From contig PMBY01000196.1 of NCBI GenBank assembly GCA_003153875.1, positions 1 through 7,509 on the forward strand: a DNA stretch of 7,509 bases, written 5' to 3'. Both the position numbers and the translations under genes were made by a program. Numbering within the stretch: position 1 is the stretch's first letter; each line of letters starts with the position of its first letter. Shown piece by piece: positions 699-7,509 of the stretch. A model generated the notes under the pieces. It saw only the letters and a program-made list of their open reading frames with translations, was not told the origin of the DNA and made no database searches. The DNA is from Myxococcales bacterium (lineage in GTDB: Bacteria > Myxococcota > Polyangia > Fen-1088).

Positions 699-770
699 TC
701 GCCTGGCCTGTCAAGACGATCGGGTTCCGTGGTTGACCCATGCAAGTGCGCGGGCCATCATGGATTTCGC

Positions 771-1232
771 ATGCTCGATCTCTACGAGGAATTCGCGGTC
801 CTGATCGACGCGCTGGAAAACGCCAAGACAGAGTACGCGGTGTGTGGCGGGCTGGCCATGGCCATCCATGGGCTACCGAGGGCCACGATTGACGTTGATC
901 TCATCGCGCCGGCGAAGGCCGGCGACCAGGTGCTCGATGTCGCACACAGGCTCGGCTACACGATTTCTGCCGAGCCGATGACATTCGCCGCGGGTGCAGT
1001 CCCCATCCGGCGCGTGACCAAGATCGATTCAACTGTGCACGATCTGCTCAGCTTGGATCTCCTGCTTGTGACTCCGGCTACCGAAAGCGCCTGGCAGACA
1101 AGAATGCGCGTCCGCTGGGAGAGGGGCGAGGTTTGGGTCGTGTCGAGGCAGGGGCTGGTCAGTTTGAAGCGCCTGCGGGGCTCGGGGCAGGATCAGGACG
1201 ACATCCGGCGCCTCGAAGAGGTCGAACCGTGA
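771..1232 (+). CDS. Minimal nucleotidyltransferase (AbiEii/MNT-like)
   Basis: This is a 153-residue protein of the small nucleotidyltransferase superfamily. The core motif is clear: CGGLAMAIHG (residues 25-34), then R37, T39 and the metal-binding pair D41/D43 in RATIDVDLI. A likely third acidic residue is D96 in LLSLDLLLV. The C-terminal VVSRQGLVSLKRLRGSGQDQDDIRRLEE is the usual ending of this family. Relatives transfer nucleotides to protein or RNA targets, and many act as halves of toxin-antitoxin or abortive-infection pairs; the target here is unknown. I chose ATG 771 because it places the GG motif at the normal distance from the N-terminus. An in-frame GTG at 729 is possible, and neither start has a clear ribosome binding site. 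The stop overlaps the GTG of the next small ORF, suggesting coupled translation. Confidence 0.85.
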   Translation: MLDLYEEFAVLIDALENAKTEYAVCGGLAMAIHGLPRATIDVDLIAPAKAGDQVLDVAHRLGYTISAEPMTFAAGAVPIRRVTKIDSTVHDLLSLDLLLVTPATESAWQTRMRVRWERGEVWVVSRQGLVSLKRLRGSGQDQDDIRRLEEVEP

Positions 1233-1390
1233 AGGTCGATATGTCGGCTGATGCGGTCACTGCGCGCCTCAAGCGCGTGGCGCAGCTCCGGCGCCTTTGC
1301 CTAGCACTGGGCAAGGCAACCCCTGTTGTCCCGGCGCCTTCAGCACCCCCGCCAAAGCGCGAGCTCGGGGCTTCGCGGTCAGGGAAGTGA
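1229..1390 (+). CDS. Small hypothetical protein coupled to the nucleotidyltransferase
   Basis: This is a 53-residue ORF whose GTG start overlaps the nucleotidyltransferase stop as GTGA. A GAAGAGG motif at 1215-1221 lies seven bases before the GTG. An alternative ATG at 1241 has GAAGG just before it and would give 49 residues. The first half, SADAVTARLKRVAQLRRLCLALGK (residues 6-29), reads as a basic amphipathic helix with regularly spaced Leu and Val. The second half is a Pro/Ala-rich basic tail (PVVPAPSAPPPKRE) that is probably disordered. I do not recognise a named family. Position and coupling suggest that it partners the nucleotidyltransferase, perhaps as a regulator or cognate small component, but this is inference. 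Its last 12 bases overlap the 3' end of the opposing ATPase gene. Confidence 0.6.
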   Translation: MKVDMSADAVTARLKRVAQLRRLCLALGKATPVVPAPSAPPPKRELGASRSGK

Positions 1391-2638
1391 TTGAGGTGCC
1401 GTACCCGGCGGTCCATCGAGCAAGAACTGCTGCCAGGTGATGGCCGGCACCTCCGCGCGCTCGGCGGTCGCGCGGCCGTCGGCGCTGCACACGACCAGGG
1501 GCTGGAAGCCGGGGTGACGGCGCGTGAACTCCAGCAACCCGGTGAGTTCGTTCATCTGGAACTTGCCGGTCTTTACCTCGATGGCCCACTTGCCCCAGCT
1601 CCCCTCTAGGATGCCATCGACATCGAGCGGCTCCTCGCGCCAGTAGGAGACGCCCTGGCCGGAATTCCACGCGTGCGCCAGGCATGCGTTCTCGACCCAG
1701 GCGCCGAAGCGCGCCGGATCGGACGTGCCGTCGACGATACCCTGCGGGGCCATGACCGCGACCAGGGCGTTGTTCAGCGTCACCAGCTTCGGGGGCGCGG
1801 CTCTACGGCGGACCGCGCGCGTCGAGTACTTCGGCAGCGCTGCCACCAGGAAAGCCTCCTCAAGCAGCGCCAGGTAGCTGGCGACCGTCTCGAGGGCGCC
1901 GGCATCCTGCAATTGGCCCCGGATTTTCTGCAAAGACACGATCTGTGCCGGCGACGAGGCCGCTACGCCGAAGACCTGGCGAAGCAGGGCGGGCCGGCGC
2001 ACGGCTGCCAGCGCGAGGATGTCGCGGCCGATGGCGGGCTCGAGGATGGCGTCGCGCACGTAGGCCGACCAGCGCGACACGTCCTTGTGCAAGGGAAAGG
2101 CGCCCGGGTAGGACCCCATGCGCACGACCAGGTCGGCGGCCCTGTCAGGCTGGACATGGAAGGCTTGCGCGACCGAGCGCGCCGACCAGTGGGTCAGGGT
2201 TAGTCGCTCGAACCGGCCGGCCAGGCTCTCGCGCGAGCCCACGGCCAGGTGAAGTGCAGAAGATCCGGTGGCAACGATGTGAATCGGCGTCTTCTTGCGC
2301 CGGAAGCTGTCCCACGCGCCCTTGAGGTGCCCAGCCCAGCCGTGCAACAGGTGGGCCTCGTCCAGCAGCAGGATTGCGCGCTTCTGGGCAACGGCGGTGT
2401 CAGCAGCCCGCGCGAGCAGGCGTTCCCAAAAGCCTGGCAGCGCAGCCTCAGGTGCGTCGGCCGCCGCATACACCGCCTGCTTGCCCACCCGTTCCGCGAT
2501 CTCGAGCAGCAGCGTGGTCTTGCCGACCTGCCGGGGACCAGCGAGCAACTGGATTCGCCCGGGGGCTGGCTCGGCCAGCCGCCTACCCAGCGCGTCCCGA
2601 CAGGCGTGGTAGCTGAGCCGGAAGTCTTCCGTGGACAT
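1379..2638 (-). CDS. AAA-family ATPase with DUF4143 domain
   Basis: This is a 419-residue P-loop ATPase of the widespread bacterial AAA_14/DUF4143 type. Walker A is GPRQVGKTT (residues 34-42), Walker B is ILLLDEAH (89-96), and the sensor-like strand is IVATGSSA (121-128). It is followed by the family hallmark SLAGRFERLTLTHWS (138-152) and by GSYPGAFPL (175-183). The C-terminal half is DUF4143-like: FGAWVENACLAHAW (311-324) matches the usual G-x-FEN segment. YWREEPLDVDGIL (332-343) followed by AIEVKTG (352-358) keeps the D...ExK pattern of a PD-(D/E)XK nuclease-like fold. Cellular function is not established for most members. The length is normal and the frame is intact. No Shine-Dalgarno sequence precedes ATG 2638, and the gene is divergent from the lipoprotein gene. 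It converges on the nucleotidyltransferase pair, so it is not part of that operon. Confidence 0.9.
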   Translation of the reverse strand: MSTEDFRLSYHACRDALGRRLAEPAPGRIQLLAGPRQVGKTTLLLEIAERVGKQAVYAAADAPEAALPGFWERLLARAADTAVAQKRAILLLDEAHLLHGWAGHLKGAWDSFRRKKTPIHIVATGSSALHLAVGSRESLAGRFERLTLTHWSARSVAQAFHVQPDRAADLVVRMGSYPGAFPLHKDVSRWSAYVRDAILEPAIGRDILALAAVRRPALLRQVFGVAASSPAQIVSLQKIRGQLQDAGALETVASYLALLEEAFLVAALPKYSTRAVRRRAAPPKLVTLNNALVAVMAPQGIVDGTSDPARFGAWVENACLAHAWNSGQGVSYWREEPLDVDGILEGSWGKWAIEVKTGKFQMNELTGLLEFTRRHPGFQPLVVCSADGRATAERAEVPAITWQQFLLDGPPGTAPQSLP

Positions 2639-2643
2639 AGTCT

Positions 2644-2653
2644 AATAATTATT
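2644..2653. promoter_or_regulatory. AT-only 10-bp palindrome before the ATPase start
   Basis: AATAATTATT is a perfect 10-bp palindrome, the only run of A/T this long in the divergent gap, and it ends six bases before the ATPase ATG on the minus strand. It overlaps a weak minus-strand promoter candidate: TTGCTT at 2673-2668, a 17-base spacer, then AATTAT at 2650-2645. Transcription from that would begin at or next to the start codon, which would fit the missing ribosome binding site. It could be a promoter element, a regulator site or both. Confidence 0.3.
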
Positions 2654-2680
2654 CGAGTACGTTCGGAAAGCAAGAAGGTC

Positions 2681-2686
2681 TATAAT
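2681..2686 (+). promoter_or_regulatory. Consensus -10 element for the lipoprotein gene
   Basis: TATAAT is an exact match to the sigma-70 -10 hexamer and stands out in this GC-rich DNA. The expected transcription start is about 2692-2695, giving a leader of roughly 20 bases before ATG 2714. No good -35 hexamer lies 16-18 bases upstream and there is no TGn extension, so the promoter would probably need an activator or be weak. Confidence 0.5.
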
Positions 2687-2699
2687 CGACGCGCGTCGA
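2686..2699. promoter_or_regulatory. 14-bp GC palindrome over the predicted transcription start (candidate operator)
   Basis: TCGACGCGCGTCGA is a perfect 14-bp palindrome that shares its first base with the -10 hexamer and is centred on the predicted transcription start. A protein bound here would block initiation, so this is a candidate repressor site for the lipoprotein gene. Palindromes of this composition can arise by chance in GC-rich DNA, but the placement is striking. Confidence 0.4.
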
Positions 2700-2712
2700 G
2701 GAGGCGCGCGTC
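2688..2712 (+). promoter_or_regulatory. Possible RNA hairpin with the lipoprotein ribosome binding site in its loop
   Basis: GACGCGCG (2688-2695) is the exact reverse complement of CGCGCGTC (2705-2712). The 8-bp stem would enclose a nine-base loop, TCGAGGAGG, that contains the Shine-Dalgarno sequence GAGGAGG (2698-2704). The ATG follows one base after the stem, so folding would hinder ribosome access to the start. The left arm would be transcribed only if RNA begins upstream of about 2688, which conflicts with using the TATAAT at 2681. The strong ribosome binding site, nine bases before ATG 2714, also settles the start of the lipoprotein. Confidence 0.4.
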
Positions 2713-2713
2713 C

Positions 2714-4792
2714 ATGACGACCTCGTTCTTTAGGCTGGCTGCAATTCTTCTGTCGGTCGCGCTTTCCGCTTGCAGTGGTGGCGCGAAAAGTTCCAGTGGC
2801 GGCATTGCGGGCACAGCCGGCATGGGCACCGGCGGCGTCATCGCGAGCGGCGGGCTGGTCGCTGGCGGCAGCACGACGGGCACGGGCGGCGCGGGCCCAG
2901 GTGGCACCACGGGCACGCCCAGCACTGGCGCACTCGGGTCGACCGTCGGATCGATTGAACTCTACGGGACATTCCACGCCATGGGCGTGATCGCCACGCT
3001 GCCGGCAGGCACGGACGCGAACAGCAACGCCGTGGCCAACGTCGAGTATCGCGTCTCGGGCACCGGCGACTACCTGCGCGGATTTCCCCTCACGCGGGTC
3101 TCTGCCACCAGCTTCGTGGGCAGCCTGTTCTGGCTTGTGCCAGGGACCAGCTACGATGTCCGCGTCCGCTACGCCGATCCTGACGGCGCGCCGCTGGACG
3201 GCGCCGGTGCAGGCGCGACTGCCTCGACCCGCGCCGAGATCTCCATCCCCTCGCCGACACGCACCCTGCAGGTCAGCCCCACCGGATCCGGCACGGCCTG
3301 CTCGACAGCGGCGCCCTGCCCGCTCTCCCAGGCGGTCAGCCAGGCCCAGGCCGGCGACGAGGTGCTGCTGGCGGCCGGCACCTACTACCAGGGAGAGTTC
3401 ACCATCTCGCGCTCAGGCACAGCGGCCGCGCCCATTTCCATCCGTGGAACCACCGGCGCGATTCTCGACGGTTCTGATCCTGCGACCTTCACCTGGACCA
3501 GTCAGACTGGCGGTGTCTTTGCCACCACCGTGAACCGGCCCGATCCCCACCTGGTCACCGCCAATGGCGCGCGCCTTTACCCGTACAGCGATCTCGCCTC
3601 GCTCACCGCTCTTTCCGCCAGCAGCACGCCCGGTCTCTTTGCCAATGGCACCGCGCTCAGCGTGCACCTGGCCGGCGGTGCCAGCCCGACGACTGTCTCC
3701 ATGGCCGTCTCTCGCTACAACTATGCCTTCACCATCACCGGCAGCTTTGTGTTCATCCGCGACCTCACTTTCCAAAACTACGGCCAAAGTGACTACGCCA
3801 AGGCCATCTACATCCGCGACGGCAGCGACAACCTGGTCCAGGGCTGCCGCTTCATCACCAACGATCTTGGCATTGGCCTCAAGGGAACCACCGACCGCAA
3901 CGTGATCCAGGACAATGAGTTCTCGGACACCATCTTCAACTGGACCTGGGAAGACGTGAAGGCCGAGGGAAACCTAGAGACCGGCGGTGTCCGTTTCTAC
4001 AGTCCAGATGATGGACGCGGGACGGTGATCCGGCGCAACAAGTTCCACGACTTCTTCGACGGCCTCGGGATCTGCCCGACGGAATCAGCGGCAGTGACCA
4101 ACGAGACCGACTTCTACGAAAACCAGAGCTACAACAACGGCGACGACGGCGTGGAGACCGACGGCCGCTGTTCCAACGTGCGTCTGTGGTCCAACATTTT
4201 CCATGACACGCTCTCAGGAATCTCGCTGGCGCCGGTTGGGGACGGGCCGGTCTACTGCCTGCGCAACCAGATCTACCTGGCGGGTGCCGGGCACAGCCAG
4301 GCCGGGTACACCGCGATTCCCTTCAAGTTCAACAGCAGCGACGGCGCATCAGGGGCTATGTATCTGTTCCACAACACGGTGGACGCCCAGCGCGCCGGCA
4401 ACGACGGGTTCAGGATCCTCGGCCCCGGCACCTGGCAACTCCTCTATACGCGCAACAACGTCTGGTCGGGAACGCTGCAAGCGATGGAGAACTCAAACCC
4501 AAGCCAGCCTCTCGACATGGACTACGACGATCTCTGGGCCAGCGGCGGCGACTACCTGGTCTATTGGGATGGGCTGACCAACAGACACCTCGCCACTATT
4601 CCCGAGGTCGCGGCCGCCACCGGCCAGCAGAGCCACGGCATCAGTGCCGCGCCGGTTTTCACTTTGCCTTCCACGGCGAACTTCACCCTCGGCCCGTCGA
4701 GCCCACTCATCGACCGCGGGATCTACATCCCCGGAATCAACGATGGATTCGCCGGGCAGGCCCCCGACATCGGAGCCGTCGAGAGTCAATAG
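2714..4792 (+). CDS. Secreted lipoprotein with fibronectin-like segment and right-handed beta-helix
   Basis: This is a 692-residue envelope lipoprotein. The N-terminus is a type II signal peptide: MTTSFFR, a hydrophobic stretch, then the lipobox LSAC with the lipidated Cys at residue 20. Residues 21-79 are a flexible Gly/Thr/Ser/Ala linker, common in myxobacterial lipoproteins. Residues 80-172 look like a fibronectin type III or Ig-like beta-sandwich (VEYRVSG, PGTSYDVRVRYADPDG). From about 185 the protein is a parallel beta-helix of the pectate-lyase superfold: it opens with LQVSPTGSG and AQAGDEVLLAAGTYYQGEFTIS, and has repeated turns such as NLVQGCRFITND, NVIQDNEFSD, TVIRRNKFHDF and VRLWSNIFHD. 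It ends with PLIDRG and APDIGAVES, the usual close of such proteins. Such folds bind or cleave acidic polysaccharides, but I cannot identify catalytic residues. The start is fixed by the signal peptide and GAGGAGG. The frame is open farther upstream, but that stretch only mirrors the ATPase gene. Confidence 0.9.
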   Translation: MTTSFFRLAAILLSVALSACSGGAKSSSGGIAGTAGMGTGGVIASGGLVAGGSTTGTGGAGPGGTTGTPSTGALGSTVGSIELYGTFHAMGVIATLPAGTDANSNAVANVEYRVSGTGDYLRGFPLTRVSATSFVGSLFWLVPGTSYDVRVRYADPDGAPLDGAGAGATASTRAEISIPSPTRTLQVSPTGSGTACSTAAPCPLSQAVSQAQAGDEVLLAAGTYYQGEFTISRSGTAAAPISIRGTTGAILDGSDPATFTWTSQTGGVFATTVNRPDPHLVTANGARLYPYSDLASLTALSASSTPGLFANGTALSVHLAGGASPTTVSMAVSRYNYAFTITGSFVFIRDLTFQNYGQSDYAKAIYIRDGSDNLVQGCRFITNDLGIGLKGTTDRNVIQDNEFSDTIFNWTWEDVKAEGNLETGGVRFYSPDDGRGTVIRRNKFHDFFDGLGICPTESAAVTNETDFYENQSYNNGDDGVETDGRCSNVRLWSNIFHDTLSGISLAPVGDGPVYCLRNQIYLAGAGHSQAGYTAIPFKFNSSDGASGAMYLFHNTVDAQRAGNDGFRILGPGTWQLLYTRNNVWSGTLQAMENSNPSQPLDMDYDDLWASGGDYLVYWDGLTNRHLATIPEVAAATGQQSHGISAAPVFTLPSTANFTLGPSSPLIDRGIYIPGINDGFAGQAPDIGAVESQ

Positions 4793-5334: not shown

Positions 5335-7509
5335 TCACTCGCCCTTGGGCCCGCGGTGCTGCATCTTTGCCAGTTGGATCAGTTCGTCCTTCAGCCGCGT
5401 GGTTTCGCGGGTCGCCTCGGCGACGCCGCGCCAGGCGTTCCACTCGGACTGGCTGTCCGCGATCGACTCGATGGCCTCGTAGTCCACGTCAGGATGGATC
5501 GACAGCAGGTAATTGCGACGTTGGCTATCGACCGAGACGACTTGGTAGGCCTTGGCGGCGCGGGCCAGAATCTTGGCCGCTGCCTCGGGCGCCGCCTGCT
5601 CGCCCCGGCTGCCAGATCCCAGCATCTCCTGTAAAGCGCGATAGGCGCGTTCGATATCGGCGCGCGGAACGCTCCAGTGAATCCCCAGGGCCTCGAAGTG
5701 GTCGACGTGATCGATCTTGGCGGCACGTGCGTTGAGTTGGTCAGCCAGGGTTTCACCGCCCGTGCGCTCGGCCCGCAGCCATTCCAGCGCACCGAAAACA
5801 TGCAACACGAACAAGATCTGGATGGCGGTGTCCTTGCCGATCCCGCCGCGGGCGAAAATGTCCGAGGCGGACGTCACCCCATCCATGACGTGCTCCACGA
5901 AGCGCAATTCCCGCGGTGACAGCCCCATCAGCGGGATGATGGGCAAGCGACTCGGCACCACACGCGGAGCCTCACCCAGGTGGGGCTCGATGATCTTCAT
6001 GACGTCGGCCAGGTTCAGCGAGCGTAGCGCCGAGCGGATACCGTGGATGACTACGCTGACCACGGGAATGCGCTTGATGTTCGGCCGCAGGGGCACCTCG
6101 CCGGTAATCTTGTACTGGCCTGCGGGCCACTCGAAACTGCGGCGAAGCTGCTCCATTTCCAGGGGGCTACCACCCACCCCGCCGCGAAGGATGGCGATGT
6201 TGGCGCGGCTGGATCGGTAGGTCAGCTTGAGAGTCCCATTCAGCTGGCGACGCCGGCCGATGGCCAGCAGAAGCACCGGGATGGGTAAGGGTGGTCGCAT
6301 GCGCAGCGCCCCGCCCAACGCCAGCGCTGCCATGTCCTGCGCCGTGCGTGGGTTCTTGAAGGCGCCCTCCGAGGGCAAGGTGGGCAGGTTCGCCGGCGCC
6401 GCCATCGGGCGTTCGGGCGCCAAAGTCGGCGGCGCGTCTGAGCGGCTCGCGGCCGGAGCCGATCGCCACGGGGCAGGCTGGGGCGGAGGGGCCTCGGGAG
6501 CGCGCCCCTGAACCGGCCCTTGCTGCGAGGCGGACTCAGCAGGGGCGGCAGCCATGTCGTCGAGACTGGGCGGGGGCGTGATGATGGGTGCCTCGCGCAC
6601 CTGGGCCGAACCCTCCCGAGGCGCGGGCCGCAGGTCGCGCGCGAACTCAATTTCGGCCGGGGGTACCACCGGATCTTGAGCCGTGGGCTCGTCGCTCACC
6701 ATCTCAGGCACGGCCTCGGCGGTGGCGTCCGGATTCGCGGCCGAGACGGAACCCGGTTCGGCCGAGGCAGAGGACGTCTCGAGAATCAGGTCCGGCGTGG
6801 GCGTCAAGGCAGGAGGCGGAACCGGCTGGCCCCAGCCAGCGCCCGCTGTCACGTCGGTCGACGGTTCCAGTGCATCGAGGATCTCGAGGCGAATTTCACC
6901 CGTGGCCGCCGCGGCCAAAAAGGCCGCCCCGCGGGCCACGGCACCCTCGACGTCGCCCGCTTTGTGCGGCTCGCGGCCGAACAGCCTCGCTACTTGCGAA
7001 CGCACGGCCGGCATCCGGGCCAGACCACCCACCAGGATCAGCTCGGTCACCTCGGTCAGTTCGATCCCCGCCTGGACCGATGCCTCCCGACACACGGTTT
7101 CGATGGCGTCGAAGAGAGGCCGCGCCACGCTCTCGACCAGCGGCCGATCGAGACTGCCCACCGGCGTGCCCGTCACCCCGATGAGGGACGCCAGAAATGG
7201 CATGCTGACATCCACCATCGCCAGGGTGGAAAGGTTGATGCGCGCGTTCTCGCACTGCTCGCGCAGCAGGGCGTAGCAGATGCGGTTCTTCAGGATCTGG
7301 CGTTCGTGGTCAGGGGACACGCTGTGGGCCATGGCGCGAACTAGCTGGCCGTCCAACCAGCTGGCGCCGATGGTCGCATCCACGCTGCGGCCCAGGGGCC
7401 TCACCTGGCCGGGCGCCAGCGCGATGATGGCAGCCTCCAGCTTCCAGCTGCCCACGTCCACCACCGCGACGGTGCCCGTGAGCGCGCGCTCGATCAGGTG
7501 CGCGGCCGC
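5335..7509 (-). CDS. Degenerate Hsp70-like / DUF4388 / J-like fusion protein (partial, N-terminus missing)
   Basis: At least 724 residues are visible; the frame is open to the right edge, so the start is outside. Numbering is from the edge. Residues 1-205 are the second half of an Hsp70 nucleotide-binding domain: the phosphate-2 region reads VVDVGSWKLEA (16-26) instead of DLGGGTFD, while the adenosine motif LILVGGLARMP (157-167) and GAVARGAA (189-196) are well kept. No Hsp70 substrate-binding domain follows. Residues 211-385 are a disordered Pro/Ala/Glu linker. Residues 400-500 resemble DUF4388/PATAN (PIPVLLLAIGRRRQLNGTLKL, FEWPAGQYKITGEVP). A winged-helix-like segment follows (LSPRELRFVEHVMDG, about 530-580). 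Residues 600-670 look like a J domain (HFEALGIHWSVPRADIERAYRAL, then AAKAYQVVSVDSQRRNYL) without HPD after helix II. The last 45 residues are a charged helix. A signalling or scaffold role is more likely than folding. GTG 7464 is an internal codon, not the start. Confidence 0.85.
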   Translation of the reverse strand, partial: AAAHLIERALTGTVAVVDVGSWKLEAAIIALAPGQVRPLGRSVDATIGASWLDGQLVRAMAHSVSPDHERQILKNRICYALLREQCENARINLSTLAMVDVSMPFLASLIGVTGTPVGSLDRPLVESVARPLFDAIETVCREASVQAGIELTEVTELILVGGLARMPAVRSQVARLFGREPHKAGDVEGAVARGAAFLAAAATGEIRLEILDALEPSTDVTAGAGWGQPVPPPALTPTPDLILETSSASAEPGSVSAANPDATAEAVPEMVSDEPTAQDPVVPPAEIEFARDLRPAPREGSAQVREAPIITPPPSLDDMAAAPAESASQQGPVQGRAPEAPPPQPAPWRSAPAASRSDAPPTLAPERPMAAPANLPTLPSEGAFKNPRTAQDMAALALGGALRMRPPLPIPVLLLAIGRRRQLNGTLKLTYRSSRANIAILRGGVGGSPLEMEQLRRSFEWPAGQYKITGEVPLRPNIKRIPVVSVVIHGIRSALRSLNLADVMKIIEPHLGEAPRVVPSRLPIIPLMGLSPRELRFVEHVMDGVTSASDIFARGGIGKDTAIQILFVLHVFGALEWLRAERTGGETLADQLNARAAKIDHVDHFEALGIHWSVPRADIERAYRALQEMLGSGSRGEQAAPEAAAKILARAAKAYQVVSVDSQRRNYLLSIHPDVDYEAIESIADSQSEWNAWRGVAEATRETTRLKDELIQLAKMQHRGPKGE

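Follow-up and report, generated by a model that had tools for sequence, protein, structure and literature searches.

Pseudoenzymes are well known among kinases, and Pam16, a J-like protein without an HPD motif, acts in an Hsp70 import motor.

Two reports give Myxococcus xanthus 15 Hsp70-family genes (PMC8265645) and place the Hsp70-like StkA of Myxococcus between pili and exopolysaccharide (PMC4319316). In cyanobacteria, the proposed target of PATAN response regulators is the type IV pilus (PMC7690835); DnaK1 of Nostoc contacts PilB in a two-hybrid test and that of Synechocystis made no contact with it, and pilus activity in the DnaK1/PilB system is tied to polysaccharide secretion (PMC9239167). 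Here we describe a Myxococcales gene that joins an Hsp70 nucleotide-binding domain (NBD), a DUF4388/PATAN-like domain and a J-like domain in one chain. "The window" below is the whole stretch of DNA analyzed (7,509 nucleotides).

Architecture of the Fusion Protein

The minus strand of the window carries a stop-free frame of 724 residues that is open at the window end. A protein of 860 aa, P0002, matches it with 100% identity across all 724 residues and, together with relatives, puts the full fusion protein at ∼860 to 875 aa; the relatives with the longest N termini start ∼12 residues upstream of the P0002 start, with VxVLGVDVGS. As the frame is cut by the window end, the NBD in the window comprises lobe II only, and the rest is supplied by relatives.

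5335..7509, minus strand: fusion-protein frame, C-terminal 724 aa plus stop; ∼136 to 148 N-terminal residues lie beyond the window
6865..7509, minus strand: Hsp70/DnaK-like NBD, lobe II only (PF00012, DnaK structures, AlphaFold2 model)
6385..6864, minus strand: disordered Pro/Ala-rich linker (pLDDT <50 at P0002 residues 352 through 511)
6094..6372, minus strand: DUF4388/PATAN-like domain without helical insertion (profile comparison, models)
5779..6066, minus strand: helical segment of winged-helix-like strand-helix-helix-helix-strand order, common to DUF4388-J paralogues
5494..5706, minus strand: J-like domain, HPD absent
5353..5487, minus strand: C-terminal tail, two long helices with IHPDVDY before them (model and alignment)

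The first-pass annotation had read this order, from Hsp70 NBD through linker, DUF4388/PATAN and winged-helix-like segment to J-like domain, in a single chain; profile–profile comparison, AlphaFold2 (AF2) modeling and structure comparison bear it out, with a linker of ∼160 residues and two helices after the J-like domain, and the fusion architecture in the window is confirmed. It is also almost certainly one gene and not two joined by a frame error, since the same open frame occurs in L001, L002 and L003; comparable long frames are present in six further genomes.

AF2 modeling with the 18-member family places the NBD at residues ∼1 through 340 and disorder at 352 through 511, followed by a structured C-terminal half. 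Modeled alone, this half reaches a pLDDT of 83.5 and a pTM of 0.75; the full-length model has a pTM of 0.46, and its relative domain orientation is left uninterpreted. Foldseek with the C-terminal model returned no match at E ≤ 0.001, and the comparison of this model with solved structures (VIA list) covers mostly residues 197 through 344 and says little on the PATAN domain or winged helix. The DUF4388 and J domains proposed for the C-terminal half miss the Pfam cut-offs in the window protein, but profile–profile and structure comparison back both.

The Nucleotide-Binding Domain

The PF00012 match of the window protein (E = 1.4e-30) ends at profile position 380 of 599. In P0002 the best stretch spans profile positions 104 through 380, and the best DnaK structures align with the NBD part in the window at chain residues ∼177 through 400. 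The AF2 model retrieves Hsp70 NBDs (best 50 matches, E = 1.4e-19 to 5.3e-17), so that profile and structure match both place the domain in the actin/Hsp70 fold. Where the profile match stops, disorder and then the PATAN-like region follow; no substrate-binding domain is present in the chain, as had been claimed at the outset.

7432..7464, minus strand: degenerate phosphate-2 motif, DVGSWKLE (DLGGGTFD in DnaK), with Lys at the T199 and Glu at the D201 equivalent
7000..7038, minus strand: adenosine-motif-like ILVGGLARMPAVR, kept (family alignment)

Residue columns were taken from sequence alignments and carry DnaK residue numbers; Lys70, Glu171 and Thr199 are catalytic residues of DnaK, and subdomain IB is a part of the NBD. 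The window itself contains the T199 and D201 changes only, and the K70 and E171 columns are read from P0002 and relatives. Across the 18 aligned members, Lys is absent from the K70 column (0/18; Ala 16, Val 1, Leu 1), Glu from the E171 column (0/18; P0029 has Glu one column earlier) and Thr from the T199 column (0/18; Lys 17, Arg 1). The D201 column holds Asp in one member and Glu in 17, and the G198 column holds Trp in 16. All four residues, K70, E171, T199 and D201, are each found in 24 of 24 control loci (L040 through L063), which are all the Hsp70 loci of the relatives' genome search outside the fusion family and whose frames were chosen by adenosine-motif pattern, independently of the residues counted.

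Throughout the window's family alignment the members keep the phosphate-2 Asp and, in the adenosine motif, the GG (18/18 each); the phosphate-1 Asp is kept in four of the five members whose sequence reaches that position. All 18 lack some 25 residues of subdomain IB. An LxVVD-like stretch, similar to the hydrophobic Hsp70 interdomain linker, follows the NBD in 17. Among nine more distant members (L094 through L102), T199 is found in none (one member is poorly aligned), K70 is kept in three with a gap at that column in four, and Glu occupies the E171 column in two; in L095, L097 and L099 the phosphate-2 Asp is gone, as is the GG pair. This varied loss indicates an architecture that has diverged widely, with the NBD active site lost to different degrees.

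From these residues we infer that the fusion NBD lacks what is needed for ATP hydrolysis; the altered site could hydrolyze slowly or bind another ligand. The early reading of the protein as something other than a chaperone agrees with the absence of K70, E171, T199 and the HPD motif from 18/18 members and with the missing substrate-binding domain. Its companion proposal, ATP or nucleotide sensing, is weakened. With those three residues gone from 18/18 and the phosphate-2 Asp from three of nine distant members, nucleotide binding appears unlikely as a conserved function of the whole fusion family; in the window's own clade, to judge by the retained Asp and GG, binding without hydrolysis is possible.

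DUF4388/PATAN Domain and Its Relatives

PF14332 has no match at E ≤ 1 in the window protein. Two of the 18 members match at E ≤ 10 (best 0.12), short of the cut-off, and L067 scores 22.2 bits against a cut-off of 25. Homology to PATAN emerges at the profile level, with 92.6% probability and a score of 44.6, whereas 200 shuffles reach at most 22.1. A narrower PATAN alignment gives 42% probability against short domains (score 30.3; 100 shuffles at most 21.3) and no support against long-form paralogues (2.5%, score 24.1). The C-terminal half as a whole is homologous to DUF4388-winged-helix-J proteins (score 98.9; 100 shuffles ≤22.7). The classic PATAN α-helical insertion is missing from alignments and models, a short form that is not unique, as some DUF4388 domains recognized by Pfam, e.g. 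in L004, are also short.

In paralogues from three MAGs, DUF4388 is preceded by a REC domain (L016, L019) or a protein kinase (L030), which puts the pseudo-Hsp70 in the place of an input domain. Three proteins from the same MAGs (L019, L023, L027) have the PATAN, winged-helix and J order in common with the fusion over an HMM–HMM alignment of 260 columns. They differ at the N terminus, where L019 has REC, L023 and L027 have no other Pfam domain, and the fusion has Hsp70; they differ also in the J domain, as L019 and L023 keep HPD and carry TPRs while L027 has neither HPD nor the His-Trp signature described below. The fusion agrees with a scheme of variable N-terminal domains on a constant PATAN-winged-helix-J part. 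A gene of the DUF4388-J-TPR type with an intact HPD lies at L001:2702-4594 (plus strand), on the strand of the fusion gene and ∼3 kb upstream of it; its Pfam-tested counterpart, L023, is ∼15 kb from the fusion gene in the contig of L002.

The J-Like Domain

5611..5619, minus strand: loop at the HPD position, Gly-Ser-Gly (alignment of 18 members)

The C-terminal half contains a J-domain fold, for which PF00226 gives the window protein 14.5 bits, below its cut-off of 27.8. HPD, which in J domains sits between helices II and III, is absent from the J loop of 18/18 members and, in a second alignment, of the 16/16 fusion rows with cover. The His position is taken by Lys (8), Gly (5), Arg (3), Gln (1) or Met (1), the Pro position by Pro (16), Ser (1) or Leu (1), and the Asp position by Gly in all 18. 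A His-Trp-Ser in the helix I–II loop is invariant among these members.

An IHPDVDY sequence lies after helix IV of the J-like domain (window:5479-5499, minus strand), off the J-domain HPD position, with HPD in 17 of the 18 main-alignment members. We considered this displaced HPD as a functional J motif and rejected it because distant members lack it, having FPDY, YPGM, YPLD, YPTV or FPKK instead.

Non-fused relatives (L072 through L093) have His at the fusion's His-Trp position and no HPD in the loop (22/22 for both); the ordinary J domains of L019 and L023 have HPD and no such His. Pfam, run on four of these relatives, detects DUF4388 in L078, L080 and L086 (above cut-off only in L086), not in L072, and HSP70 in none of the four; L078 also has a subthreshold PilZ match (19.1 versus 22.5 bits). 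Together these relatives define an HPD-less class of J-like domain, marked by a conserved His in the helix I–II loop and present in many genomes of the phylum.

Selection and Distribution

The fusion coding sequence, NBD included, is under purifying selection and shows no decay. Whole-frame dN/dS is 0.23 against L001, 0.25 against L002 and 0.37 against L003, the last being the more distant comparison. In the same order, the NBD gives 0.094, 0.100 and 0.32 and the linker 0.55, 0.58 and 0.55; constraint is weaker than in the NBD for both the J-like domain (0.15, 0.35 and 0.40) and the C-terminal tail (0.21, 0.47 and 0.70). The linker is the least constrained part only against L001 and L002, because against L003 the tail exceeds it.

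The full family occurs in at least 6 of 59 relatives' genomes (up to 16 candidates scored per genome); in G016 and G018 a contig end truncates it. A protein search yields 28 relatives at E ≤ 2.6e-74. The precomputed Pfam column lists HSP70 for 27 of them, and the other is a 460-aa fragment; searching with the C-terminal half yields 29, of which 28 have HSP70 and one is a fragment (7998 candidates scored). L001 is a Myxococcales MAG and thereby of the Myxococcota. At least 7 of 282 genomes of its phylum match over most of the C-terminal module at E < 1e-30, a lower bound with up to seven candidates scored per genome. At least 127 of the 282 have some match to the module at E ≤ 1e-5; the remaining matches listed are partial, covering mostly the winged helix and J-like domain.

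Among the six of those seven strong-match genomes other than G001, from which the nine more distant members (L094 through L102) come, the HSP70 Pfam cut-off is passed in L065, L066, L067 and L070. L068 is below it (14.7 versus 20.6 bits) and L069 has no match at E ≤ 0.5, so the Hsp70 N terminus of these two is assigned by position and alignment only. L100 (same gene as L069) is apparently misaligned in places; L096, L097 and L102 belong to the residue alignment and lie outside the Pfam set, and the called frame of L097 stops short of the J-like domain.

In a tree of 39 rows, one branch separates the 16 fusion rows from the 23 others (support 78/81, 75% of bootstraps), and a single origin of the fusion is one possible reading; OTH_L027 forms a long branch and OTH_L091 has an odd make-up. 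FUS_L097, OTH_L019 and OTH_L023 were left out for short cover, and during row collection OTH_L071 (wrong frame) gave no match and OTH_L016 negligible matches only.

Gene Neighborhood and Host Genomes

All-against-all blastp of gene calls from 15 loci and the window found no neighbor in more than 4 of 16 stretches, and hence no conserved operon. An enoyl-CoA-hydratase-like cluster lies beside the fusion gene in L100, L101, L103 and L105 (Pfam on the L100 member), a convergent MopE/FGE-sulfatase-like gene in the sister loci L103 through L105 (Pfam on L103), and nitrite/sulfite reductases in L094 and L102. One cluster, known by blastp only, recurs in L001, L002 and L099, and there are several clusters found at two loci each, for the most part within the closely related group of L001, L002 and the window.

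A small cupin-like gene (window:4812-5279, minus strand; subthreshold Pfam) lies immediately downstream of the fusion gene in the same orientation, an order repeated in L002; the cupin-like gene was not called in L001. The window also encodes an AAA_14 and DUF4143 ATPase (1379-2638, minus strand; PF13173, PF13635), a lipoprotein-like secreted protein with a right-handed β-helix match (2399-4792, plus strand; PF13229) and a small nucleotidyltransferase-like protein (729-1232, plus strand) with weak matches to DUF6036 and related families, all below cut-off.

Other Hsp70 matches, known by match and not by residues, are present in 6/6 close genomes, and GrpE in 10 of the 12 genomes holding the fusion. 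The PilT family is found in 12/12 fusion genomes but also in 6/14 controls, and is unspecific; PF00437 is found in 6/6 genomes but also in 13/14 controls.

Discussion

The fusion probably represents a rare family of non-catalytic signaling scaffolds in the phylum to which these Myxococcales MAGs belong. Beside the lost catalytic residues, the missing HPD and the purifying selection, we count for a scaffold with exchangeable input the REC and kinase swaps and the winged-helix/J-like relatives without Hsp70, as well as the separate Hsp70 matches and GrpE of host genomes, by which chaperone parts exist apart from the fusion. Counting against it are the distant members that keep K70 (3/9) or Glu at the E171 column (2/9), the truncation of L097, the lack of a neighbor gene conserved across the family, and the Hsp70 parts of L068 and L069 that Pfam does not recognize. 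An actin-like scaffold, as first suggested, is compatible with the evidence. The pseudo-NBD would be the input module, binding a protein or a ligand, at the position that other N-terminal domains occupy in related proteins; the disordered linker would tether it flexibly, and the PATAN domain, winged helix and HPD-less J-like domain would form the output or docking end. A speculative target is a pilus or polarity machine. The pilus is suggested by the action proposed for cyanobacterial PATAN response regulators, and a type IV pilus link of the family is a lead and only a guess; equally speculatively, the fusion protein might divert the cell's true DnaK or DnaJ.

More tentatively, and in our judgment unlikely, the dead Hsp70 and the HPD-less J-like domain might be retained on a single polypeptide because each still binds the other. 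Such an ATP-independent NBD–J clasp, opened by a partner or ligand, would expose or hide the PATAN domain, and J-like domains of the HPD-less His-Trp type would in that case form their own class within the J fold, for docking rather than Hsp70 stimulation.

Close to the first-pass view, and overlapping with the scaffold, is a switch whose NBD, binding ATP or ADP but not hydrolyzing it, would inform the PATAN end of the energy state or of another nucleotide. The retained phosphate-2 Asp, GG and phosphate-1 Asp and the NBD dN/dS of 0.09 to 0.32 speak for it; Lys or Arg in place of Thr199 (18/18), Trp for G198 (16/18) and the loss of Asp and GG from L095, L097 and L099, by which binding is no family-wide need, make it rather unlikely. 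The retention of folds whose catalytic residues are gone, the GrpE of host genomes and the precedent of Pam16 would also suit a decoy, in which the inactive NBD or J-like domain binds and modulates real J proteins, GrpE or DnaK, possibly while acting as a scaffold. Yet J-like relatives lacking HPD are also found in proteins that have no Hsp70 match, and subdomain IB is missing throughout; we think such titration quite unlikely.

A self-contained chaperone, carrying the J partner in cis and using its C-terminal half as a novel part for substrate binding, could draw on the two folds in one chain and the LxVVD-like stretch, but K70, E171, T199 and HPD are all missing in 18/18 members and so is the substrate-binding domain, making it highly improbable. 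The degenerate look of both chaperone halves might be put down to a pseudogene or to two genes joined by a frame error. This is barely credible given the 28 related proteins, the shared frame of L001, L002 and L003, the long frames of six more genomes and an overall dN/dS of 0.23 to 0.37; independent genomes contradict it.

Returning to the scaffold, the fusion points to a PATAN-centered modular signaling family with interchangeable N-terminal domains, and offers a natural test of whether an Hsp70–J interface can function in the absence of ATP hydrolysis or HPD. In the portions available of literature on DUF4388, PATAN and Hsp70 (including PMC11580455, PMC9239167, PMC7690835, PMC8265645 and PMC4319316), no such fusion was found. 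Its domains are known and their combination appears to be new, the surprising part being an inactive Hsp70 paired with an inactive J-like domain. The divergent Hsp70 paralogues of myxobacteria (SglK, StkA, cd10170 group) likewise come with many Hsp70 copies and complex life cycles (PMC8265645, PMC4319316); the available descriptions of them mention no PATAN or J fusion. The fusion differs from the DnaJ J domain (PF00226) in lacking HPD, in the invariant His-Trp-Ser of its helix I–II loop and in its subthreshold match in the window protein. With DnaK/Hsp70 (PF00012) it shares the NBD fold, a GGLARMP adenosine-like motif and, in 17 of 18 members, the LxVVD-like stretch, and it differs in having neither the substrate-binding domain nor, in 18/18, the equivalents of K70, E171 and T199.
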